Below are positions 11,308 through 38,764 of a DNA stretch of 39,090 nt, piece after piece. Numbering within the stretch: the stretch's first letter is position 1; the number at the start of each line of letters is the position of its first letter. The DNA is from Bacteroidia bacterium (lineage in GTDB: Bacteria; Bacteroidota; Bacteroidia; 2-12-FULL-35-15). The position numbers were made by a program, and so were the translations under genes. The stretch is taken from contig JAURXZ010000005.1 in assembly GCA_030654175.1 (NCBI GenBank), positions 1 through 39,090 on the forward strand. Reading direction: 5' to 3'. Under the pieces are notes generated by a model that made no database searches, had not been told where the DNA came from, and saw nothing but the letters and a program-made list of their open reading frames with translations.

Positions 11308-12612
11308 ATGATGAAGAAAATTTTACTAACCGTTGTTTTATTACTGGCTGTTGTTGGAATATCCAATTCACAAAATGAAAAAAGCAAAAAGCCTAAACAG
11401 CTTCCTTCGTTGGCTCTTGGATTAGGCGTTCTTTCGTTTGATGGAGATATTGGAAATGGGGTAAATTTAACTTCCTTAAGCAGAATAAGAGGAGGATACA
11501 GTTTAACTCTTGATCAACGTATTGGCAAAGCTTTTGGTGTATCAATTAATGGTATATACGGAAAATTGGCCGATAGCGAGATGGGGGCAAAGCGGAATTT
11601 GAATTTTGAATCAAAGGTAATTCAAGCTGATTTGAACTTTGTTATTCATCTTGATAACGATTTTATTCTTAAGCGTACTAGCATTTTTGCACCCTATTTG
11701 TATGCCGGTTTTGGGTATATGAAATTTGATTCTTATGGAGATTTAACTGATAAAAACGGAATAAAATATAATTATTGGACAGATGGAACTATCCGTGATT
11801 TAAAAGACAGCACAAATGGGGCGAAAATTATTCAACGCGATTATACCTATGAAACAAAATTAAATGACAGTGCTAAATATGCTAATAGCACTTTTGCTAT
11901 ACCTGTTGGACTTGGAGTTAACCTGAAGATCGTTGATAATCTTTTTATTAATCTGGGGGCTACCTATTATATGACCATGTCTGACTGGATCGATAATTTA
12001 AAAATAGGAAAGAACGACAGCTATATCTTTGTCAATTTTGCCATTCAGTATAATTTCGGTAAACCTTATGATGACAGTAACCCTGTTTATAGCACCGTTG
12101 ATTTTTCTTCTATAGATAATTTAGATACAGATGAAGATGGTGTTAAGGATGGCGAAGATGTTTGCCCGGGAACTCCTAAAACTGCAAAAGTAACTCCAAA
12201 TGGTTGCCCCGAAGATAGCGATCAGGATGGCGTTTCTGATTATCTGGATAAAGAACCTCTTACAAAAATGGGTGCATTTGTTGATGAAAGTGGTGTAACA
12301 ATTACTGAAAAGATGATCGCTGACCGCCAAACGCAATTTAATGCACAAGCAACTGAGCGTAGCAACTTGTTTAATGAAAATCCTAGTTTAAAATATTTAA
12401 AAGAAGTTGAAGCCAAATCAAAAAGTGCACGTAAAAGTAACCCTAAAGGTAGCAGTAGCATTCCTTTCGCTATAAAATTTGCAGACTTGAACAATGACGG
12501 TTATATTTCAACTGATGAAATAGCCAAAGCCATTGATTCTTTTTTTGAAGGAGATTCGGAATTTACAGTTGAGAAATTAAATGATTTAATTGATTTTTTC
12601 TTTGAACAATAA
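11308..12612 (+). CDS. Outer-membrane beta-barrel protein with TSP3 repeats and C-terminal EF-hand, copy 1
   Basis: The 434 aa product has a Sec signal peptide (M-M-K-K, hydrophobic core, G-I-S-N-S-Q). Residues about 33-250 form a beta-barrel-like domain ending Q-Y-N-F-G. TSP3-type calcium-binding repeats follow at about 272-315 (D-T-D-E-D-G-V-K-D, Cys286, Cys300, D-S-D-Q-D-G-V-S-D). A charged linker leads to a canonical EF-hand loop at 393-404: D393, N395, D397, G398, I400, E404. The last residues are helical and aromatic (L-I-D-F-F-F-E-Q). It is probably an outer-membrane protein whose tail domains bind calcium. TSP3 also occurs as the linker of OmpA-type porins, but no OmpA domain is present. 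First of three tandem paralogues; a second ATG lies at 11311. Confidence 0.85.
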   Translation: MMKKILLTVVLLLAVVGISNSQNEKSKKPKQLPSLALGLGVLSFDGDIGNGVNLTSLSRIRGGYSLTLDQRIGKAFGVSINGIYGKLADSEMGAKRNLNFESKVIQADLNFVIHLDNDFILKRTSIFAPYLYAGFGYMKFDSYGDLTDKNGIKYNYWTDGTIRDLKDSTNGAKIIQRDYTYETKLNDSAKYANSTFAIPVGLGVNLKIVDNLFINLGATYYMTMSDWIDNLKIGKNDSYIFVNFAIQYNFGKPYDDSNPVYSTVDFSSIDNLDTDEDGVKDGEDVCPGTPKTAKVTPNGCPEDSDQDGVSDYLDKEPLTKMGAFVDESGVTITEKMIADRQTQFNAQATERSNLFNENPSLKYLKEVEAKSKSARKSNPKGSSSIPFAIKFADLNNDGYISTDEIAKAIDSFFEGDSEFTVEKLNDLIDFFFEQ

Positions 12613-12680
12613 AAACAACTAATTTTTTCAATATAATTTATTTACATAAAAAGTCCATTCTGCTTTTCAGCTCTATGAAT

Positions 12681-12735
12681 TGTAAAATGGCTTTTAATCG
12701 CCATTACACAGTATAGTTTACATTTTATATACTGT
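12681..12735. repeat. Two adjacent hairpins between barrel copies 1 and 2
   Basis: AATGGC (12686-12691) pairs with GCCATT (12700-12705), extended by TGT/ACA with a small bulge. Directly after it, ACAGTATA (12708-12715) pairs with TATACTGT (12728-12735). Neither is followed by a strong T-run. They may be processing or attenuation structures separating the two paralogues. Confidence 0.45.
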
Positions 12736-12853
12736 TACGCAATACTTAATATTTTAGAAAAAAAATCGAAATAGTCTGTTTTATCAGTAAATTGAAGTTC
12801 TTTTTTTGAGAGTTTACGATTTTAAAAGTCAGCTGTCATTAATTTAAAACAAT

Positions 12854-14140
12854 ATGATAAAAAAAATTTCATCAACCATAGTTTTATTGATGGTTATTGT
12901 TGGAATAATAAGTTCACAAAACAATAACTTAAAACCAAAACTGCTTCCTTCCGTTGCTATTGGAATGGGTGTGCTTTCGTTTGACGGAGATATTGGAGCC
13001 GGTTTAAATTTAACCTCATTGAGCAGAGTTAGAGGAGGATATACTTTAGGTGCCGAACAACGTATTGGTAAAATTATTGGTATAGCCTTTAACGGCCTTT
13101 ATGGGAAATTAGCAGACGGAGAGAGAGGGGCAAGCCGGAATTTAAATTTTGAATCTAAAATTCTTCAAGCTGATTTAAATCTTGTGCTGCATCTTGATAA
13201 TGATCTGGTATTAAAACGCAACAGTACATTTTCACCTTATTTATTTGCGGGATTTGGTTTTTTAAAATTTAATTCTTTTGGAGATCTAAAAAATAAAGAC
13301 GGAATTGCATATAATTATTGGGAAGATGGTTCCATACGCAGTGACAGTGCCACAGGATCAAAAGTTCTTAGACGAGACTATACCTATGAAACAAAATTAA
13401 ATGATGGCAAATATAGTAACAGCGCATTTTCAATACCTGTAGGACTAGGAGTGAACATAAAGATCATTGATAAGTTTTCAATTAATCTTGCTGCCACTTA
13501 TTATTTTACTACTACTGATTGGATCGATAATTTTAAAAATGAGAAAAACGATAGGTTTGTTTTTGCCAACATTGCAATCAGATACAACCTTGGTAGTAAT
13601 TCTTTTGATGATAGTGATCCTGTTTATCAAACTGTTGATTTTGTATCTCTTGATAGTTTAGATTCGGATGGAGATAAAGTAGCCGATGCAATTGATCTTT
13701 GTCCCGGAACACCTAAAGATGCGAATGTAACCGCTGATGGTTGTCCTGAAGATAGTGATTCGGATGGCGTTCCTGATTATATGGATAAGGAAGTACTTAC
13801 TATTGTTGGAAGATATGTGGATGAAAATGGAGAAACGATCACCGAAAAAATGTTTGATGACCGCAACAGACGATTTAATTCAATGGCCACTGAACGTAGT
13901 CAATTGTTTAATGAAAATCCAAGTTTTAAATATTTATTAAAGCTGGAGGCTAAATCAAGAAGCGTTCGAAAAAATAGTAAAGATTCAGCAGTGCTCCCGA
14001 TAGCAATGTTGCCTTACGATTTAGATGATGACGATTATCTTTCTGCTGATGAATTAGTAAAAGCGATAGATTCATTTTTTGACGGTGATTCTGGTGTCGA
14101 AAATTTAAATAGCGTAATTGATTATTTCTTTGAACAGTAA
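12854..14140 (+). CDS. Outer-membrane beta-barrel protein with TSP3 repeats and EF-hand-like C-terminus, copy 2
   Basis: The 428 aa product is collinear with its neighbours: signal peptide ending I-I-S-S-Q, barrel domain about 32-247 with shared phrases such as V-L-S-F-D-G-D-I-G and R-D-Y-T-Y-E-T-K-L-N-D, and TSP3 repeats about 268-312 with two Cys (283, 297). The EF-hand-like loop at 389-400 keeps acidic residues at positions 1, 3, 5 and 12, but position 6 is Asp instead of Gly. It is the most diverged of the three: several short deletions and many substitutions, including the loss of the I-K-Y-N-Y-W-T-D-G form. The spacer upstream has two hairpins and no clear -7 box, so it may be read through from copy 1. 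Confidence 0.84.
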   Translation: MIKKISSTIVLLMVIVGIISSQNNNLKPKLLPSVAIGMGVLSFDGDIGAGLNLTSLSRVRGGYTLGAEQRIGKIIGIAFNGLYGKLADGERGASRNLNFESKILQADLNLVLHLDNDLVLKRNSTFSPYLFAGFGFLKFNSFGDLKNKDGIAYNYWEDGSIRSDSATGSKVLRRDYTYETKLNDGKYSNSAFSIPVGLGVNIKIIDKFSINLAATYYFTTTDWIDNFKNEKNDRFVFANIAIRYNLGSNSFDDSDPVYQTVDFVSLDSLDSDGDKVADAIDLCPGTPKDANVTADGCPEDSDSDGVPDYMDKEVLTIVGRYVDENGETITEKMFDDRNRRFNSMATERSQLFNENPSFKYLLKLEAKSRSVRKNSKDSAVLPIAMLPYDLDDDDYLSADELVKAIDSFFDGDSGVENLNSVIDYFFEQ

Positions 14141-14280
14141 AAAAATAAATAGATTTTAATATTTTAAGTTTAAATCTGATTATTTAACACTCTCATTTTT
14201 AATATTACAAATTTTATTTTTAATGAAATAACACTTGTTCACAATTCTCCTTTCTTAAAACTTATATTTTTTCACATCTT

Positions 14281-14338
14281 AAAACACCCGATTTTAATAG
14301 CCTACAAGGTTATTCAAACATCAGGTGTTTTTTTTTTC
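14281..14338 (+). terminator. Rho-independent terminator after barrel copy 2
   Basis: AAAACACC (14281-14288) pairs with GGTGTTTT, and a GAT/ATC extension follows past one mismatch. Inside lies a second stem, AATAGCC with GGTTATT. A run of about ten T follows. It separates copy 2 from copy 3. The rest of this 357-base gap is AT-rich and has only a promoter box. Confidence 0.8.
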
Positions 14339-14418
14339 TTTTCTCGGATAAACGGTTATTAACAAAACCCTGTTTACAATTACAAATCCAACACCTTAAA
14401 AACAGAAATCAAATAGAA

Positions 14419-14426
14419 TAGTTTTG
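14419..14426 (+). promoter_or_regulatory. Predicted -7 box for barrel copy 3
   Basis: TAGTTTTG fits TAnnTTTG, 71 bases before the start codon and just after the terminator. This suggests copy 3 starts its own transcript, probably extending into the SPOR gene at 15826. Confidence 0.45.
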
Positions 14427-14497
14427 CTCAAGATATTTTAATTGCGCTATATATAATTTTTTTTGAAAAAAAAGTAGCTACTGTTAATTTAAAGAAA

Positions 14498-15790
14498 ATG
14501 ATAAAAAAAAATTCACTTACTATAGTTTTGTTATTGACCATAGTAGGACTAATTAATTCACAAAACGAAAAAGGGAAAAAAGCAAAACAGCTTCCTTCAA
14601 TTGCAATTGGAGCTGGTGTGCTTTCGTTTGACGGAGATATTGGAAATGGTGTGAATTTATCTTCATTAAGCAGAATAAGAGGTGGATATAATTTAACCGT
14701 TGAGCAGCGTATCGGCAAAGTGGTTGGAGTCTCATTTAATGGCATCTACGGGAAATTAGCGGATAGCGAAAGCAGTTTAAAGCGCAACATAAATTTTGAA
14801 GCAAAAATAATTCAGGCCGATTTAAACCTTGTTCTGCATCTTGACAATGATTTTATTTTTAAACGCTCCAGCGTTTTTGCTCCTTACTTATTTGTTGGGT
14901 TTGGGTATATGAAATTTGATTCTTATAGCGATTTAACAGATAAGAACGGCATAAAATATAATTACTGGACAGATGGAACAATCCGTGATTTAAAAGACAG
15001 CACCATTGGGGCAAAAATTATTCAACGCGATTATACTTACGAATCAAAATTAAATGACAGCGCTAAATATGCTAATAGCACATTTGCATTGCCTATTGGT
15101 CTTGGAGTAAATCTGAAGGTTGTCGATAATCTATACATAAACCTGGGTGCTACCTATTATATGACGATGTCGGATTGGATCGATAATTTTAAAAGTGGGA
15201 AGAATGATAGTTACATTTTTGCCAATGTAGCAGTTCAATACAATTTTGGTAAACCTTATGATGATAGCAATCCTGTTTATGAAACCGTAGATTTTTCATC
15301 ACTCGACAATTTAGATTCAGACGAAGACGGGGTGAAGGATGGTAATGATGTTTGCCCGGGAACTCCTAAAGGTGCAAAAATAACACCGAATGGTTGCCCT
15401 GAAGATAGCGATGAGGACGGTGTTTCAGATTACATGGATAAAGAACCGCTTACTAAGAAAGGTGCATTTGTTGATGAAAGCGGTGTTACAATTACTGAAA
15501 AAATGATCGCAGAGCGTCAAACAGTTTATAGTGCATTGGCTACTGAACGCAGTAATCTGTTCAATGAAAATCCAAGTTTAAAATATTTAAAAGAGGTAGA
15601 AGCTAAATCGAAAAAAGGTGCACGTAAAAGCGGGACTATTCCTTTGGCTTTAAAAGTGGCAGACGCTAATAATGACAATTTTATTTCAACAGACGAGATT
15701 TCAAAAGCGATTGATAGCTTTTTTGAAGGAGATTCAGATTTTACAGTCGAAAAATTGAATGACTTAATTGATTTCTTCTTTGACCAATAA
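14498..15790 (+). CDS. Outer-membrane beta-barrel protein with TSP3 repeats and EF-hand-like C-terminus, copy 3
   Basis: The 430 aa product has the same plan: signal peptide ending L-I-N-S-Q, barrel about 33-250, TSP3 about 272-315 (Cys286, Cys300) and a degenerate EF-hand loop at 389-400. In that loop D389, N391, D393 and E400 are kept but Asn replaces the Gly at position 6. It aligns to copy 1 without gaps over about the first 370 residues and is much closer to copy 1 than to the intervening copy 2. Long shared runs, such as Y-N-Y-W-T-D-G-T-I-R-D-L-K-D-S-T, are nearly identical at the DNA level too. The SPOR gene starts 35 bases after its stop, so the two are probably co-transcribed. Confidence 0.85.
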   Translation: MIKKNSLTIVLLLTIVGLINSQNEKGKKAKQLPSIAIGAGVLSFDGDIGNGVNLSSLSRIRGGYNLTVEQRIGKVVGVSFNGIYGKLADSESSLKRNINFEAKIIQADLNLVLHLDNDFIFKRSSVFAPYLFVGFGYMKFDSYSDLTDKNGIKYNYWTDGTIRDLKDSTIGAKIIQRDYTYESKLNDSAKYANSTFALPIGLGVNLKVVDNLYINLGATYYMTMSDWIDNFKSGKNDSYIFANVAVQYNFGKPYDDSNPVYETVDFSSLDNLDSDEDGVKDGNDVCPGTPKGAKITPNGCPEDSDEDGVSDYMDKEPLTKKGAFVDESGVTITEKMIAERQTVYSALATERSNLFNENPSLKYLKEVEAKSKKGARKSGTIPLALKVADANNDNFISTDEISKAIDSFFEGDSDFTVEKLNDLIDFFFDQ

Positions 15791-15825
15791 AACAAACTAA
15801 TAAATAAAATTTAATATTTGAATCT

Positions 15826-17139
15826 ATGTTAAAATTCTCAATTCTTCTATTCAACACTCTTGCACTGTTGATATACCAGTTTTTATTTACTGAAGGAGTT
15901 ACGGTAACGCAAAAACTTCCGGCTTCTGCAAAAGCAGAAAGTGAATTTACTGTAGTATTAACAATTAATAAAGGGACTGCTGCCGGTTTTGCAAAGTTGC
16001 AACAGGATCTTCCTGCTGGATTTACCGCTGTTGAGGATAAGAACAATGGTGCTTCATTTTCATTCAGCAATCAAGCAGTAAAATTTATATGGATGTCACT
16101 ACCAGGTGATGCGGAATTTACGGTTTCATATAAAGTGAAGGTTGATGCAGGGATCAGTGGTGATCAAACTGTTGCAGGTAAATTTTCTTATGTGTCTGAT
16201 AACGCTAAACAAACAATTGAAATAGAACCCGCTACTATTACAATAGGAGAAGAGGGAGCAACAGCAACTGTAACACCTACTGAAACGCCAACTGAAACGC
16301 CAACAGAAACACCTACTGAAACTCCAACGGAAACACCTACTGAAGTTACTAAAACCACAACAGGAGCCGAGGCATCACCTTTTACCTGTGTTCGGAAAGT
16401 TCCAAGCAGCACTTCCGGTGAATTTACAGTTGAGATTACAGTAAACAAAGCGAATTTAAGTGGTTTTGCAAAATTAATGGAGGTATTACCTTATGGATTT
16501 ACTGCCACAGCCTTAGAAACTGCCGGAGCATCATTTTCTTTTGCGGATCAAAAGGCGAGATTCATTTGGGTAACATTGCCTGCTCAACCGGAATTTAAAA
16601 TATCTTATAAAGTAACCGCTGCAGATGTTACGGGCGACCAAATTATTGATGGGGTATTTTCTTATATCGAGAATGATGAAACCAAGAAATTTGTGTTACA
16701 AACAAGTACAATAACTGTGGGTGCAGGAGAACCTACAGATGTTGTTAAAACTACTGAAGAGCCAACGAAAGAACCTACAAAAGAACCAACTAAAGAACCT
16801 ACTAAGGAGCCGACATATGAAGAGTTGGCTGCCAATAACATTCCTGTTCCACAGGGCAATATAACTTATCGTGTTCAAATTTTGGCCTTACGTAAACCTA
16901 AAAGTGCAAGTACAGTAGCTAATATTTATAATATTTCCGAAACTGTTAACACTGAAATGGCCGAAGGGTTTAGAAAATATACTGTTGGTTCACACAATGA
17001 ATATAAACAGGCCCGTGATGCACGCGAAAAGTTTAAACCTAAAGGTGTAATTGCTCCATTCGTTACTGCATATAACAGAGGAAAACGTACTACAGTTCAG
17101 GATGCCTTAATGGTAACTAACCAAAAATGGTACAGGTAA
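15826..17139 (+). CDS. Secreted protein with duplicated beta-sandwich-like domain and C-terminal SPOR domain
   Basis: A 437 aa protein with a hydrophobic N-terminus (residues 4-21), either a signal peptide or an anchor. Two copies of one domain follow, at about 26-140 and 186-298. Both carry the phrases S-G/A-G-F-A-K-L, L-P-x-G-F-T-A, G-A-S-F-S-F, F-I-W-x-x-L-P and F-S-Y-x-x-x-x. The fold looks like an all-beta adhesin or DUF11-like domain, but I do not recognise it. A linker of T-P-T-E repeats (149-173) joins the copies. A second linker of E-P-T-K repeats (312-330) leads to a SPOR domain at about 346-417 (Y-R-V-Q-I-L-A-L, then K-Y-T-V-G-S). SPOR domains bind glycan strands lacking stem peptides, so peptidoglycan contact is likely. 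Its function is unknown. Confidence 0.82.
   Translation: MLKFSILLFNTLALLIYQFLFTEGVTVTQKLPASAKAESEFTVVLTINKGTAAGFAKLQQDLPAGFTAVEDKNNGASFSFSNQAVKFIWMSLPGDAEFTVSYKVKVDAGISGDQTVAGKFSYVSDNAKQTIEIEPATITIGEEGATATVTPTETPTETPTETPTETPTETPTEVTKTTTGAEASPFTCVRKVPSSTSGEFTVEITVNKANLSGFAKLMEVLPYGFTATALETAGASFSFADQKARFIWVTLPAQPEFKISYKVTAADVTGDQIIDGVFSYIENDETKKFVLQTSTITVGAGEPTDVVKTTEEPTKEPTKEPTKEPTKEPTYEELAANNIPVPQGNITYRVQILALRKPKSASTVANIYNISETVNTEMAEGFRKYTVGSHNEYKQARDAREKFKPKGVIAPFVTAYNRGKRTTVQDALMVTNQKWYR
16270..16344 (+). repeat. 12-bp tandem repeats encoding Thr-Pro-Thr-Glu
   Basis: Six imperfect copies of a 12-base unit like ACTGAAACGCCA encode a T-P-T-E linker between the two duplicated domains. Third-position differences between units show it is not a fresh expansion, yet copy number could vary between strains. 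Confidence 0.8.
16759..16815 (+). repeat. 12-bp tandem repeats encoding Glu-Pro-Thr-Lys
   Basis: About five units like GAACCTACAAAA encode E-P-T-K before the SPOR domain. The linker is Pro-rich with alternating charge, so probably extended, and could span part of the periplasm. Confidence 0.8.
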
Positions 17140-17200
17140 TTTGATAATTTTATAATGTGCAAATTTGAAATTTAAAGGAGTTCATTATCAAATTATCAAA

Positions 17201-17233
17201 TTTGCCAATTATCAAATTGATTTATTATATTTG
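17201..17233 (+). promoter_or_regulatory. Predicted promoter (-33 TTTG, -7 TATATTTG) with almost no leader
   Basis: TTTG at 17201-17204 and TATATTTG at 17226-17233 are separated by 21 bases, a full match to the Bacteroidota promoter. Only five bases lie between the -7 box and the ATG at 17239, so the mRNA may be leaderless or nearly so. Confidence 0.65.
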
Positions 17234-17238
17234 CGTTT

Positions 17239-19746
17239 ATGATTCACAAATCAAAGGGCATTTTATTTTTTTTATTGATAACGTGTTTTTCTTACGCGCA
17301 ATCAATAAAATCATCTTCCTATAGCACTCCAAGCGCTACTTCGGGCAAAACTGAAGACGCTGTTGAAAAAGATACAACAAATAAAAATGCTCCTGCCGAA
17401 TTAATTATCACTCCAACCATAGGTTTAGGAACCGGAATGTTCTCTTTTTATGGGGATCTGTACAACAAACACTTTCAGGCACCGATGGTAAGCCGTCTGG
17501 CTTTTGATTTAAGCGTGTCACAACCCATTAAGGACTATTTGCAAATGAACCTTTACGTTTTATTTGGAAAACTTGGCGCAAATGAACGATTTGCGCCCAA
17601 TAATCGTAATCTCAATTTTGAGACCCAAATACGGGCTGGCGGCCTTACCTTAGAATATAATTTCGATAATTTTTTGCCCCAAAAACGTAGTGCAAGCCCC
17701 TATATTTCAATGGGAATTGAGTCTTTTGAGTTTCTTTCCAAAACGGATATGAAAGACAAAAATGGCGATACCTATTTTTACTGGTCAGACGGATCGATCC
17801 GTAATAAAGATGAACTTGCTTCTGACGCAAGTCAATCAGTTGAAATTTTCCGCGATTATACTTATGAATCAGATGTTCGTGAAATGAATCTCGATGGTTT
17901 TGGAAAATATCCTGAACGTTCTTTTGCAATACCTGTTGGAGCTGGGGTAATTCTTAAGATAAATGATTATGTAAACTTTAAAATGGGCGCTACTATGCAC
18001 TTTACTTTTAATGATTACATTGATGGCGTAACTGAAAAAAGTCTTGGAAATCGTCAGGGAAACAGCAGGAATGATAATTTCATGATGACCTCATTTTCCC
18101 TCCATTATAACCTGGGAACAAGCAAAAAGGGAAAGAAAAAGAGAGAAGCTGCAAGAGATAATGAAGAAAACTATAGAAATGTTGACTTCGCATTGCTGGA
18201 TCTGGATGATACTGACAAAGATGGAGTAACGGATTGGGATGATCAATGCCAGGGAACTCCTCCGGGGGTGCCGGTAGATGCAAAGGGTTGTCCGCTTGAT
18301 GGTGATGATGACGGTGTTCCAAATTATAAAGATGATGAATTAAAATCCCCTAAAGGTGCACTTGTAAGTACAAGAGGAGTGCAAATGTCCGATTCTCTGA
18401 TAGCGTATCAATATAATTTTTATATGGATTCAACAGGAAGTTTCGGATTAGTTGATAACCGCGATCCTTTATCAAGTAAATTAGATAAAAAGGAATATAC
18501 AGTTGAATTAGGGACTTTTAAAAAGGGACTTCCTGCAAATCTGATGACTAAATTTTTGAGCATCAGTGATATTTCCAGTGCTGCGAAAAGTGATTCTGCA
18601 ACTATTTATACAGCCGGAAAATTTGATAATCTTAAAGATGCCGAAAAACGTAAGCAACAGCTTATTAGCGAAGGTTTAACTGACGCCAGGGTGGTTTATA
18701 AATTAAATTCAAAGTATTATGATGTGGATGCAATTGCAAGTGCAAAAACGGGTACTGAAACAGCAAAAAAAGATAAAAATTTGAAGGATCTTTTTAAGGG
18801 AACATTTTTAGGTGAAGATAAAACTCCTTTAGCTAATTCAAAAGTTAATTTAGTGAATGAAAAAGGTGAAGTATTACAAAGCACAACAACCGATGGAATG
18901 GGTGCTTTTCACTTTGATTACTTAACACCGGATCAAAATGTATTGTTTGTTCTTGACGAAAATGATACCCAGCTGAAAAAATTGAAAAAAGTGTTTTTAG
19001 CCGATAATAAAGGTGATAAGGTCAGAGAAGTATTTCCAAACAAATCCGTATTTAGCTTACATGACGTTAAGAAAGTGATTACGCCAATAGCAAGTGTAAC
19101 AAAAGATACCAAGGACACTAAAACTACCACCATCAGCTCCGGCAGTGCTTTGAATACTCCCGGTGTTGTGTTAAGGGTTCAACTTGGAGCATACAAGAAA
19201 AAACTCTCAAAAGCTGTATTTAAGGGTATCGATGATTTAATAGAGGTACGCACCGAAGATGGTTTATATAAATACATGACGGGTTCATTTACATCTATGG
19301 ATGCTGCTGCAAAACTTAAAGTGGAGATGCTGTTGAACGGCTATCCTGGTGCATTTATTGCGGCATATAAAGATGGTAAACGAATTACTTTGGAGGAAGC
19401 TGGTGCAACACTTGCTAAAAAAGAAGATGTTATAGCAACTCCTGATAATGGTGAAGTGGGCGGAGTAAACAAAAAGTTAGTGAAATTTAAAGTGCAGGTT
19501 GGTGTATTTAAAAATTCGCCACCCGATAATGTGCTTTCTGTATTTTCAAAATTAAGAGATCTGAATGGAGAAAGAACTTCAAGTGGTTTAACTCGCTATG
19601 TTGTTGGTTCGTTCAATAGCTATAAAGATGCGGAAACTTTTAAAAATGATATTGTTAAAAGATACGGACTCTCTGATGCCTTCGTTGTAGCAACATTTAA
19701 CAACGAATACATTTCAATACCGGAAGCTTTAGAGATATTAAAATAA
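17239..19746 (+). CDS. Multidomain outer-membrane protein: beta-barrel, TSP3, carboxypeptidase-regulatory-like and three SPOR-like domains
   Basis: At 835 aa this is the largest envelope protein of the locus. A signal peptide ends F-S-Y-A-Q. Residues about 55-293 are a barrel related to the three upstream paralogues: shared phrases are R-N-L-N-F-E, F-Y-W-S-D-G-S-I-R, F-R-D-Y-T-Y-E-S and S-F-A-I-P-V-G-A-G-V. TSP3 follows at 320-365 (D-D-T-D-K-D-G-V-T-D, Cys337, Cys351). A SPOR-like domain lies at about 418-488 and a carboxypeptidase-regulatory-like (Ig-type) domain at about 519-580. Two clearer SPOR domains sit at 643-712 (L-R-V-Q-L-G-A-Y) and 748-822 (F-K-V-Q-V-G-V-F). The likely job is joining the outer membrane to peptidoglycan, perhaps at division or curvature sites. 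It has its own promoter. Confidence 0.85.
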   Translation: MIHKSKGILFFLLITCFSYAQSIKSSSYSTPSATSGKTEDAVEKDTTNKNAPAELIITPTIGLGTGMFSFYGDLYNKHFQAPMVSRLAFDLSVSQPIKDYLQMNLYVLFGKLGANERFAPNNRNLNFETQIRAGGLTLEYNFDNFLPQKRSASPYISMGIESFEFLSKTDMKDKNGDTYFYWSDGSIRNKDELASDASQSVEIFRDYTYESDVREMNLDGFGKYPERSFAIPVGAGVILKINDYVNFKMGATMHFTFNDYIDGVTEKSLGNRQGNSRNDNFMMTSFSLHYNLGTSKKGKKKREAARDNEENYRNVDFALLDLDDTDKDGVTDWDDQCQGTPPGVPVDAKGCPLDGDDDGVPNYKDDELKSPKGALVSTRGVQMSDSLIAYQYNFYMDSTGSFGLVDNRDPLSSKLDKKEYTVELGTFKKGLPANLMTKFLSISDISSAAKSDSATIYTAGKFDNLKDAEKRKQQLISEGLTDARVVYKLNSKYYDVDAIASAKTGTETAKKDKNLKDLFKGTFLGEDKTPLANSKVNLVNEKGEVLQSTTTDGMGAFHFDYLTPDQNVLFVLDENDTQLKKLKKVFLADNKGDKVREVFPNKSVFSLHDVKKVITPIASVTKDTKDTKTTTISSGSALNTPGVVLRVQLGAYKKKLSKAVFKGIDDLIEVRTEDGLYKYMTGSFTSMDAAAKLKVEMLLNGYPGAFIAAYKDGKRITLEEAGATLAKKEDVIATPDNGEVGGVNKKLVKFKVQVGVFKNSPPDNVLSVFSKLRDLNGERTSSGLTRYVVGSFNSYKDAETFKNDIVKRYGLSDAFVVATFNNEYISIPEALEILK

Positions 19747-20265: not shown

Positions 20266-21534
20266 TTATGTTTTTTGCTTCTTCTTTTTAGCGGCAGGAA
20301 ACAGGATATTATTCAATATTAATCTGTATCCCGGTGAGTTGGGATGTAAATTCAGATCCGTTGGTGGATCTTCAACACGATGTTCGTAATCTTCAGGATC
20401 GTGACCACCATAAAAAGTATAGGTTCCCTTACCGTATTCACCATGAATGTAACGGGCTTCGTTGGCTGCTTTATTTTCCCCTAATATCAATACATTGGGT
20501 TTGATGAAGGATTTATCAAACCCAACTGTTTGTCCCCAGAAACCTTTAATGATCTGTTCGTGGTTTTGACAAAGCATGGTAGGTACAACATCCCATTTTG
20601 CTGAAAATTCGAATAAAGTAAACAAATCATTTTCTCTTTTTACACCATGTTTTTCTTTTCGGGTTCGGTAGGTATCAATGTTAGATTTGGCATATTCAGA
20701 GGGATTGGTGCTGAGTGTGAAATTGGTGAAAGCAAATGTTTTTGAAAAATCGAGTTTTGAATTATAATTAGGGGTTGTTCCGTCTCCATCAAACATATTT
20801 TCACAAATATCCAAACCTTCAGCGGCTAAAGCTATATCATACGAATCGGGAGCCGAACACATGGCAAACAAAAAGCCTCCGCCTGAAGTAAAATCCCGTA
20901 TTTTTTTTGCAACAGCGAGTTTCATTTGAGATACTTTTTCAAAACCCAGCGATTTTGCACTGGCTTCTAAAAATCGTTCCTGCTCCTGATACCAGGCCGC
21001 ATTGCGGTAGTTCGCCCAAAAGCGACCGTATTGTCCTGTAAAATCTTCGTGATGAAGGTGAAGCCAATCATATAATGGGAGTTTTTCTTTCAGGATCTCT
21101 TCATCATAAACTACATCGTAAGGGATTTCTGCATACTTAAGTACCAATGTTACTGCATCATCCCAGGGTTGTTTTGTTTTAGGTGAATATACCGCCACCT
21201 TAGGTGCCTTCTCCAATTTCACATTTTCCATATTTACTTCCGGATTGGAAATTTCAGTAAGTATGGCACTGGAGCGGGAGTCTGCTATCAATTCAAAAGT
21301 TACACCGCGAATGGTACATTCATTTTCAATTTCTTTTGCATCTTTGATCATAAAACTACCACCACGGTAGTTCAATAGCCAGTTTACTTCCACATCCTGC
21401 TTGAGCACCCAATAGGCAACCCCATAGGCTTTCAAATGGTCTTTTTGACTCAGATCCATCGGAATAAGAATATATGCCGCTTGTGATAAAGTGGTTATGA
21501 ATAAAAACGAAAAGAGTATTATTATACGTTTCAT
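20266..21534 (-). CDS. Conserved Bacteroidota secreted protein, often mislabelled asparagine synthetase B
   Basis: The 422 aa product has a signal peptide (M-K-R-I-I-I, hydrophobic core, L-S-Q-A-A). From memory, close relatives across Bacteroidota carry the database name asparagine synthetase B, but I see neither an N-terminal catalytic Cys for a glutaminase nor an ATP pyrophosphatase motif, and the protein is exported. Strongly conserved phrases are Y-I-L-I-P-M-D, L-N-Y-R-G-G-S-F, H-L-H-H-E-D-F-T-G-Q-Y-G, G-G-G-F-L-F-A-M-C-S-A, M-L-C-Q-N-H and Y-G-G-H-D-P-E-D-Y. The clustered His and Asp suggest a metal or ligand site, and the middle part resembles a glutamine-amidotransferase-like fold. Its function is unknown. 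It ends in a lysine-rich tail (K-K-K-K-Q-K-T). Confidence 0.8.
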   Translation of the reverse strand: MKRIIILFSFLFITTLSQAAYILIPMDLSQKDHLKAYGVAYWVLKQDVEVNWLLNYRGGSFMIKDAKEIENECTIRGVTFELIADSRSSAILTEISNPEVNMENVKLEKAPKVAVYSPKTKQPWDDAVTLVLKYAEIPYDVVYDEEILKEKLPLYDWLHLHHEDFTGQYGRFWANYRNAAWYQEQERFLEASAKSLGFEKVSQMKLAVAKKIRDFTSGGGFLFAMCSAPDSYDIALAAEGLDICENMFDGDGTTPNYNSKLDFSKTFAFTNFTLSTNPSEYAKSNIDTYRTRKEKHGVKRENDLFTLFEFSAKWDVVPTMLCQNHEQIIKGFWGQTVGFDKSFIKPNVLILGENKAANEARYIHGEYGKGTYTFYGGHDPEDYEHRVEDPPTDLNLHPNSPGYRLILNNILFPAAKKKKQKT

Positions 21535-37792: not shown

Positions 37793-38764
37793 ATGAATAT
37801 TTTAGAAATAAGCAAAAATTACAATACTCAAGCCAAATGTATTGCTAAACTTGAAAAATTGCGATGGGGGAAATCTGTAATGTGTCCTTATTGCGATTCA
37901 AAACGCAATAGAGCTGTTAAAAGCGAAGCAGGTCGCCATTCTTGTAAAAGTTGTAAAAGGTCGTTTACCGTGTTAATTGATACCATTTTTGAAAGTTCTC
38001 GTTTACCGTTACCACAATGGTTTATGATTATAGGGCTTGTTTTAAATGCTAAAAGTGGACTTGCTGCAAAGGAGATTCAACGAAATATCGGCTGTACTTA
38101 TAAGACTGCATATTACGTTGCTATGCGTATTAGGATAGGGATGTTGATGCCAAATACAAAACTACATGGCATTATTGAAATGGATGAAAGTTATTTTGGA
38201 GGGAAAGCACGAAAGGCTCACAAAATATCCGATAGTGATACGAGCATCGGTGGCGAAACGATAACTTTAAAAAGAGGTAGAGGAACTAATAAAATTTCGG
38301 TCGCAGGAATGGTTCAGCGTAAAGGAATGGTAAAAACGCAAGTAATGGAAAAACTTACTAAGCGTAATTTATTAGCAATGCTTAAACACTATGCGAGTAA
38401 GGATAATTCAATACTTGTAACCGATGGTTTTAAATCATATAAGGAACTTGAAACATATATTGATAGACTTGAAATAAACCACTCAAAGTCTTTTAGCAAA
38501 GGGATTGTGCACGTAAACACAATTGAAAATTTTTGGGGTTCGATTAAAAATGGTGTCAAAGGAAGTTATAGAGCAATAAGCAAAAAGTATTTACCATTCT
38601 ATTTAGTAGAGTTTGAATGGAAATTTAACCATAGAAACTTTAGAGGTAATCAATTAGATGAATACCTTAAAAAAGCGGTAACTCATCAAAAGGAATTAGA
38701 ATATTGGAAAGCTGAATCAACTGAACAAGTGAAGGATATAGCTTATGAAAAACAAAAAGAATAG
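37793..38764 (+). CDS. IS1595-family (ISXO2-like) transposase
   Basis: A 323 aa DDE-type transposase. The N-terminus carries a zinc ribbon (C-P-Y-C, then C-K-S-C), typical of the family, followed by a helix-turn-helix-like region (A-A-K-E-I-Q-R-N-I-G). The catalytic core shows E-M-D-E-S-Y-F-G-G-K for the first Asp, V-T-D-G-F-K-S-Y for the second, and H-V-N-T-I-E-N-F-W-G-S-I-K for the third acidic position. The C-terminal part (F-E-W-K-F-N-H-R-N) is also standard. The gene is intact, with no frameshift, and the inverted repeats are well matched, so the element may be active. Confidence 0.95.
   Translation: MNILEISKNYNTQAKCIAKLEKLRWGKSVMCPYCDSKRNRAVKSEAGRHSCKSCKRSFTVLIDTIFESSRLPLPQWFMIIGLVLNAKSGLAAKEIQRNIGCTYKTAYYVAMRIRIGMLMPNTKLHGIIEMDESYFGGKARKAHKISDSDTSIGGETITLKRGRGTNKISVAGMVQRKGMVKTQVMEKLTKRNLLAMLKHYASKDNSILVTDGFKSYKELETYIDRLEINHSKSFSKGIVHVNTIENFWGSIKNGVKGSYRAISKKYLPFYLVEFEWKFNHRNFRGNQLDEYLKKAVTHQKELEYWKAESTEQVKDIAYEKQKE

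Follow-up and report, generated by a model that had tools for sequence, protein, structure and literature searches.

We describe a five-gene cassette on the forward strand of a 39,090-nucleotide stretch of a Bacteroidia bacterium genome (contig JAURXZ010000005.1; the whole stretch is called the window below). With a little better than even confidence, we read it as encoding a peptidoglycan-bound scaffold of two proteins, termed here S and BIG, on which outer-membrane proteins with an EF-hand tail dock, linking the outer membrane to the wall. The open reading frames (ORFs) lie in the order B1, B2, B3, S and BIG, with spacers of 241, 357, 35 and 99 bp (Table 1). The three B proteins combine a barrel, a TSP3 stretch and an EF-hand; S carries a duplicated domain and SPOR, and BIG joins a barrel and TSP3 to three SPOR-like domains. 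An earlier note on this DNA had listed this set on one strand, and the ORFs, profiles and structure model confirm all of it. Its reading of the locus as a wall-anchored calcium assembly holds in part: the domains, gene order and barrel model stand, and anchoring is consistent with the conserved SPOR glutamine and lysine or arginine, while the calcium sites are predicted by conservation only. It missed the kinship of the barrels with PorG, the probable anchor of S, the degenerate first SPOR domain of BIG and the portable nature of the EF-hand tail.

Architecture of the B, S and BIG proteins

After length filters of 400-470 aa for B, 400-560 aa for S and 660-900 aa for BIG, 58 of 63, 69 of 78 and 58 of 69, respectively, of the proteins listed entered the alignments (A2, A3 and A4), which together with those of the window comprise 61 B, 70 S and 59 BIG sequences. 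From the 61 B sequences, an AlphaFold2 model of B1 was obtained with a mean predicted local distance difference test score (pLDDT) of 79.8 and a predicted template modelling score (pTM) of 0.53. The eight strands of its barrel fall within residues 34-249 and are followed by TSP3 and a helical tail; in this and the other model the folds of single domains were used and the interdomain arrangement was not trusted. The top Foldseek match of the B1 model is OmpA (E 4.3e-8), and VIA-align superposes the two over 168 residues with Z 18.6 and a root-mean-square deviation (rmsd) of 2.9, which bears out the barrel proposed earlier. HHalign shows the barrels of B and BIG to be homologous (probability 100, E 1.3e-56). 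In Pfam, the B proteins match OMP_b-brl, DUF6089 and TSP_3, with a weak EF-hand in B1 and B3; S matches the PT repeat, and BIG matches SPOR, DUF6089 and a carboxypeptidase-regulatory or MG3-like domain. Pairwise dS values of 1.1-1.3 and dN values of 0.10-0.24 among B1-B3 indicate diverged copies under constraint and no fresh duplication.

The TSP3 stretch follows the barrel in both B and BIG. Against TSP_3 (PF02412, cut-off 25), B1 and B3 score 29.2 and 30.0, above the cut-off, and B2 scores 18.4, below it. Pfam TSP_3 lists no match for BIG; the TSP3 region of BIG matches that of B by HHalign with E 2.7e-33. Within the stretch, nine Asp and two Cys columns are invariant among the 61 aligned B proteins, the cysteines being Cys286 and Cys300, both inside the TSP3 motif (61/61). 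Further along, the EF-hand of B1 scores 17.3 bits against PF00036, below the cut-off of 25.4, B2 is not listed by Pfam for EF-hand at E 0.1, and at E <= 1 the profile matches 48 of the 61 members. The 12-residue loop itself is nearly invariant: D393 is found in 61/61, Asn or Asp at 395 in 60/61, D397 in 61/61 and E404 in 60/61, so that loop positions 1, 3, 5 and 12 carry the acidic residues of an EF-hand when either Asn or Asp is accepted at position 3. A conserved LIDFFFEQ-like motif closes the tail. On residue conservation, the TSP3 and EF loops of B are predicted calcium sites.

The model of S, built from 70 sequences (mean pLDDT 84.9, pTM 0.43), shows an N-terminal helix, two beta-sandwich domains, disordered linkers and a SPOR-like domain. 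The two repeats are homologous to each other (HHalign E 2.2e-45). In VIA-align searches the sandwiches matched the CLIPPER adhesin domain (9ifr; Z 13.9, rmsd 2.6, 118 residues), the BcpA pilin (Z 13.6, rmsd 2.0, 121 residues) and a cohesin-FN3 pair (2w1n; Z 12.9, rmsd 16.7, 205 residues), so several immunoglobulin (Ig)-like folds match about equally well. In the first Ig-like domain E40, K49 and N126 are conserved in 64/70, 70/70 and 65/70 homologues, a set that we take to resemble that of isopeptide-forming pilin domains.

The SPOR domain of S, absent from the matches of the general Pfam scan, scores 13.4 bits against PF05036, under the cut-off of 21, and the profile matches 47 of the 70 S members at E <= 1; by HHalign the domain matches the SPOR domains of BIG with E 2.6e-24 and 1.7e-21. 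SPOR3 of BIG reaches 38.7 bits, above the same cut-off. SPOR1 of BIG is recognised by HHalign against the other SPOR domains (E 3.1e-11 to 7.2e-16), and HHalign links all the SPOR-like domains of S and BIG. A crystal study of RlpA names one highly conserved glycan contact, Q270, together with a basic patch (PMC6895207). Q351 of S, which we equated with Q270 by motif, and K384 are each present in 70/70 homologues. In SPOR1 of BIG, the key Gln is found in only 16/59 homologues, and by this residue the domain is degenerate. The conservation of the Gln and of Lys or Arg is consistent with cell-wall anchoring, and S as well as SPOR2 and SPOR3 of BIG would bind peptidoglycan. In other families, BIG relatives at five loci are 1111-1835 aa long and each contain between five and seven SPOR-like stretches, an expansion that fits a wall-gripping role. 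Long SPOR-bearing frames of ~1750-2350 aa also recur in the window organism's order; one in the window's own genome (L118, contig C34, 7248-13415) encodes a protein of 2055 aa that matches TPR and PD40 and has three SPOR-like stretches at its C-terminal end.

S differs from B and BIG at its N terminus. Signal peptides of Bacteroidetes follow a Q-rule, as described in PMC10653852. A small residue followed by Gln ([AGSCT]Q) occurs at residues 14-27 in 52/61 B and 49/59 BIG proteins and in 0/70 S proteins; for residues 14-32 the counts are 56/61, 50/59 and 27/70, and for [AGSC]Q over residues 13-45 they are 60/61, 53/59 and 13/70. The mean pairwise identity of this region is 0.40 in S, compared with 0.27 for the signal peptides of both B and BIG. 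These counts point to the N-terminal helix of S as an uncleaved anchor, with which S may stay in the inner membrane. A second S-like family is present in the window organism's order; its members, of ~285-310 aa, have one Ig-like domain and SPOR, with a small residue and Gln after the signal peptide.

Table 1. Coordinates and features of the cassette and of related proteins. Positions refer to the window, or to the named locus where one is given.
Feature	Positions	Strand	Description
B1	11308-12612	+	Q-rule signal peptide; 8-strand barrel, residues 34-249; TSP3, 271-317; EF-hand C-terminal tail, ~325-434
B1 EF-hand loop	12484-12519	+	Residues 393-404
B2	12854-14140	+	B1 paralogue, 65% identity; EF tail match 13814-14137
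B3	14498-15790	+	B1 paralogue, 83% identity; EF tail match 15470-15787
S	15826-17139	+	Hydrophobic N-terminal helix 2-21 without Q-rule motif; Ig-like 1 (26-141); Ig-like 2 (187-300); Pro/Thr-rich linkers; SPOR 346-437
S N-terminal helix	15829-15888	+	Probable uncleaved membrane anchor
S SPOR domain	16861-17136	+	Q351 and K384 conserved; HHalign match to BIG SPOR domains
BIG	17239-19746	+	Q-rule signal peptide; PorG-like barrel, ~57-295; TSP3, ~322-368; SPOR1, ~415-500 (degenerate); carboxypeptidase-regulatory/MG3-like, ~521-578; SPOR2, ~644-721; SPOR3, 749-832
BIG SPOR2	19168-19401	+	Q648 59/59; K or R678 58/59
BIG SPOR3	19483-19734	+	Pfam SPOR over cut-off; Q753 54/59; R or K786 53/59
Expanded BIG relatives	L143-L147
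Second S-like family	L120 5052-5981; L121 5031-5885; L122 4601-5473; L124 5576-6451; L125 4479-5348
EF-tailed OmpA-domain proteins	L153 1487-3661; L154 5029-7203 (window's genome); L156 3142-5436; L157 2869-5418; L159 1698-3950

Elsewhere in the window, a TTG-TAnnTTTG sigma-type promoter pair has one full copy at 17202, before BIG; it was found without a control and we claim nothing from it. Downstream of the cassette, a 422-aa ORF (20266-21534, minus strand) has no Pfam match at E 0.1 and no NCBIfam match at E 1e-5, and an IS1595 family transposase lies at 37793-38764 (plus strand; 174.2 bits, cut-off 75).

Gene order and distribution of the cassette

A contig scan retrieved 464 S relatives, and gene order was read from the best 80 loci. 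ORF calling labelled S in 79 of these (none was labelled in L106); since it can lose S under a longer overlapping ORF, the gene-order counts may be too low. B lies directly upstream of S in 63/79 loci and BIG directly downstream in 70/79, and the triple B-S-BIG is present in 61/79. The possibility raised in the earlier note, that homologues are scattered with no shared neighbourhood, disagrees with this count. Flanking genes differ between loci, UvrA and LOG often lying upstream and many loci having other neighbours. Most loci have one B beside S, and the three B copies are a local feature of the window. Cassettes are found in Flavobacteriales, Bacteroidales and Sphingobacteriaceae metagenome-assembled genomes, some with doubtful labels, and in the cultured Perlabentimonas gracilis S and B are adjacent. 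Because both sequence and gene order are conserved, chance is excluded.

The S profile matches 36/36 genomes of the window organism's order, 33 of them at E <= 1e-89; the three with weaker matches are 76, 85 and 83% complete. In a draw of 296 genomes from the phylum (>= 90% complete), it matches 21 at E <= 1e-10, with full-profile S only in the window's genome and one other (G075), the remaining matches covering the SPOR part. In a draw of 295 Bacteroidia genomes (the class draw), it matches 145 at E <= 1e-25 and 150 are without it. The draws differ so strongly presumably because the phylum draw favours well-studied families. The BIG profile matches 141 of the 295 class genomes at E <= 1e-40; with the looser threshold, 137 have both BIG and S, 4 the barrel alone, 8 S alone and 146 neither. 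Near-full-length BIG (a match from position <= 50 to >= 699 of 720) is present in at least 74 class genomes, and 73 of the 74 also match S, among the matches listed. One candidate for BIG without S (L140, genome G026) was ruled out, S lying beside BIG at G026:C129:28940-30331.

This distribution bears on two other explanations. S might be a lineage-specific FtsN-like division protein, in which case the cassette would tie invagination of the outer membrane to the septum, in the manner of Tol-Pal elsewhere. The membrane helix, linker and C-terminal SPOR domain of S form the typical layout of SPOR proteins, as outlined in PMC6895207, and its invariant SPOR Gln and Lys and its presence throughout the order are in keeping with such a role. 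However, among the commonest neighbours listed, division genes are not seen recurring beside the cassette, the cytoplasmic part of S would comprise at most about three residues, and the 150 class genomes without S speak against it as well, so we consider this explanation very unlikely. Quite unlikely, too, is that OmpA-like porins and wall binders share the place by descent as separate proteins and form no single system. Every part is a common domain type, B is sometimes missing or single and varies in copy number, and S and the barrels part in 12/295 genomes. Against such independence stand the tight gene order despite differing flanks and, over 20 loci, the pairwise distances: those of B, S and BIG correlate with one another at 0.88-0.94, versus 0.67-0.90 with LOG and UvrA, though the value between LOG and UvrA is itself 0.95.

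The portable EF-hand tail and a proposed docking model

We built an EF-tail profile from the last 110 residues of B. It matches 90/295 class genomes, and S is matched in 89 of the 90; that these genomes also match the barrel profile is expected, because B carries both. Of six EF-tail matches in the window's genome, three are the B genes and three lie in other proteins. Two of the latter are 724 aa each with OmpA domains before the tail, and the third, a frame of 1361 aa truncated where the contig stops, matches OmpA. In genome G344, an EF-tailed protein with TPR, PD40, carboxypeptidase-regulatory and OmpA domains adjoins a TPR gene. In G350, two EF-tailed TPR-PD40-OmpA proteins, a layout that we take to be PorE-like, adjoin PorP/SprF genes (Pfam E 2.7e-35 and 5.8e-36); such PorP/SprF neighbours were found in this one genome. 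From its matches on other proteins, the EF tail of B is a portable domain. Of the 73 genomes that match S and have near-full-length BIG, 31 have no EF-tail match at E <= 1e-6 among the matches listed, which fits, and suggests, a division into core (S and BIG) and client (EF-tailed proteins).

These observations can be joined into a mechanism. B and BIG would insert in the outer membrane as 8-strand barrels, as the model and homology indicate, and the even number of strands would place the tails of both in the periplasm. SPOR2 and SPOR3 of BIG and the SPOR domain of S would hold peptidoglycan through their conserved residues. S would be kept at the inner membrane by its uncleaved helix, S and BIG thereby gripping the wall from both sides. 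The TSP3 and EF loops of B may bind calcium and the EF tail may dock on the scaffold, the Ig-like domains of S being the likeliest site, and other EF-tailed outer-membrane and wall-binding proteins may dock likewise. The affinity of SPOR domains for denuded glycans would favour division sites, and a septal location is a prediction by analogy with other SPOR proteins. Wall anchoring of the cassette is, we infer, well supported; docking of the EF tail and calcium dependence are hypotheses. A more specific version, in which the Ig-like domains of the wall-bound scaffold receive EF tails in cohesin-dockerin fashion as a calcium-dependent plug-in platform of the Bacteroidia periplasm, clipping barrels and the PorE-like partners of PorP/SprF type 9 carriers to the wall at defined sites, possibly at the septum, seems to us rather unlikely as a whole.

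Several points weigh against the scaffold reading. Pfam scores the EF-hand of B and the SPOR domain of S below their cut-offs, and the domain arrangement is unreliable in both models (pTM 0.53 for B1 and 0.43 for S). The signal-anchor status of S comes from a motif count, in which the 27/70 S proteins of the wider residue range, where Thr is allowed, reflect a T-Q at residues 28-29, in the first strand of the model; some relatives of S have a single Ig-like domain and a Q-rule signal peptide, so not all members of the S family are anchored. The 137-genome overlap of S and BIG is looser than it appears, because the BIG profile at E 1e-40 also matches B-type barrels, and the 12/295 genomes in which the S and barrel profiles part count here too. 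Finally, shared descent alone could yield both the co-occurrence and the nesting of EF tails in genomes that have S, the counts being uncorrected for phylogeny.

Relation to known systems and significance

In the main rival reading, which we regard as unlikely, the barrels are accessory PorG-type parts of type 9 secretion or gliding; they would couple to the GldK/PorK ring or track, and S and BIG would serve as stators on the wall side. PorG (NF052316, DUF6089) shares with B and BIG an 8-strand barrel, a periplasmic tail and detectable sequence similarity, and B1, B2, B3 and BIG match its model with 52.8, 46.0, 50.2 and 76.4 bits. PorG is an 8-stranded outer-membrane protein whose tail is disulfide-bonded to GldK, according to a 2025 paper (PMC12635249). 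SprA was found in 26/26 near-complete relatives searched, and the PorP/SprF genes beside EF-tailed PorE-like proteins in G350 point the same way. All four barrel scores, however, lie below the curated PorG cut-off of 130 bits, and the window's genome has a separate PorG above it (195.2 bits), which is encoded at a different location and differs in its length of 281 aa and its short tail. The conserved Cys pair of B belongs to the TSP3 motif, which commonly contains such pairs, and wall-gripping SPOR domains would impede movement along a track. Genomes G019 and G028 have SprA without S and barrel matches, so the type 9 machinery needs no cassette. Type 9 secretion as the sole context was rejected, SprA being present in 29/31 relatives, cassette-free G019 and G028 included, and hence giving no discrimination.

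Other known systems resemble parts of the scaffold that we favour. OmpA-type TSP3 proteins have a TSP3 stretch with wall binding behind it, as in the cassette, and in B1 and BIG the TSP3 region has a sequence match to one of them (OmpA family protein, PDB 5wtl). They differ in their OmpA C-terminal domain, in place of which BIG has SPOR domains and B an EF-hand tail; matches to the OmpA peptidoglycan-binding domain (PF00691) are absent from the five window proteins and found in 1/61 B members at E <= 1. The SPOR proteins FtsN and RlpA share a C-terminal SPOR domain with the conserved Gln, and S resembles them further in its hydrophobic N-terminal helix and its linkers of low complexity; in contrast to them, S has two Ig-like domains and BIG fuses its SPOR domains to an outer-membrane barrel. 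The cohesin-dockerin system is alike in pairing Ig-like sandwiches, as in S, with a C-terminal calcium-loop tail on several proteins, as in B and others. Foldseek hits to a cohesin dyad suggested membership of that system; this is weakened by the equal Ig-like VIA-align scores and by the Dockerin profile (PF00404), which matched 2/61 B members with a best E of 0.25, and we keep it as a working analogy only. GspB/OutB of Dickeya (PMC9239104) likewise links an outer-membrane part, peptidoglycan and the inner membrane, but is a type 2 secretion scaffold.

A search of the open-licence literature, with subscription papers and preprints outside its scope, found no description of the cassette or of a SPOR-barrel fusion. 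The earlier statement that no such system had been described agrees with this search, which is not the whole literature. The domains themselves are familiar; what appears new, among wall-anchored outer-membrane systems, is that PorG-like barrels occur together with SPOR arrays, an Ig-SPOR partner and a portable EF tail.

To our knowledge, little is known of how the outer membrane of Bacteroidota is fastened to the wall beyond OmpA-type proteins. The cassette is a gene set of conserved order and clear domain logic that is frequent in the class draw (S in 145/295), and its near absence from the phylum draw (full-length S in 2/296) may explain why it has gone unnoticed. From the portable EF tail we predict that many outer-membrane proteins, possible partners of type 9 carriers among them, share a receptor.

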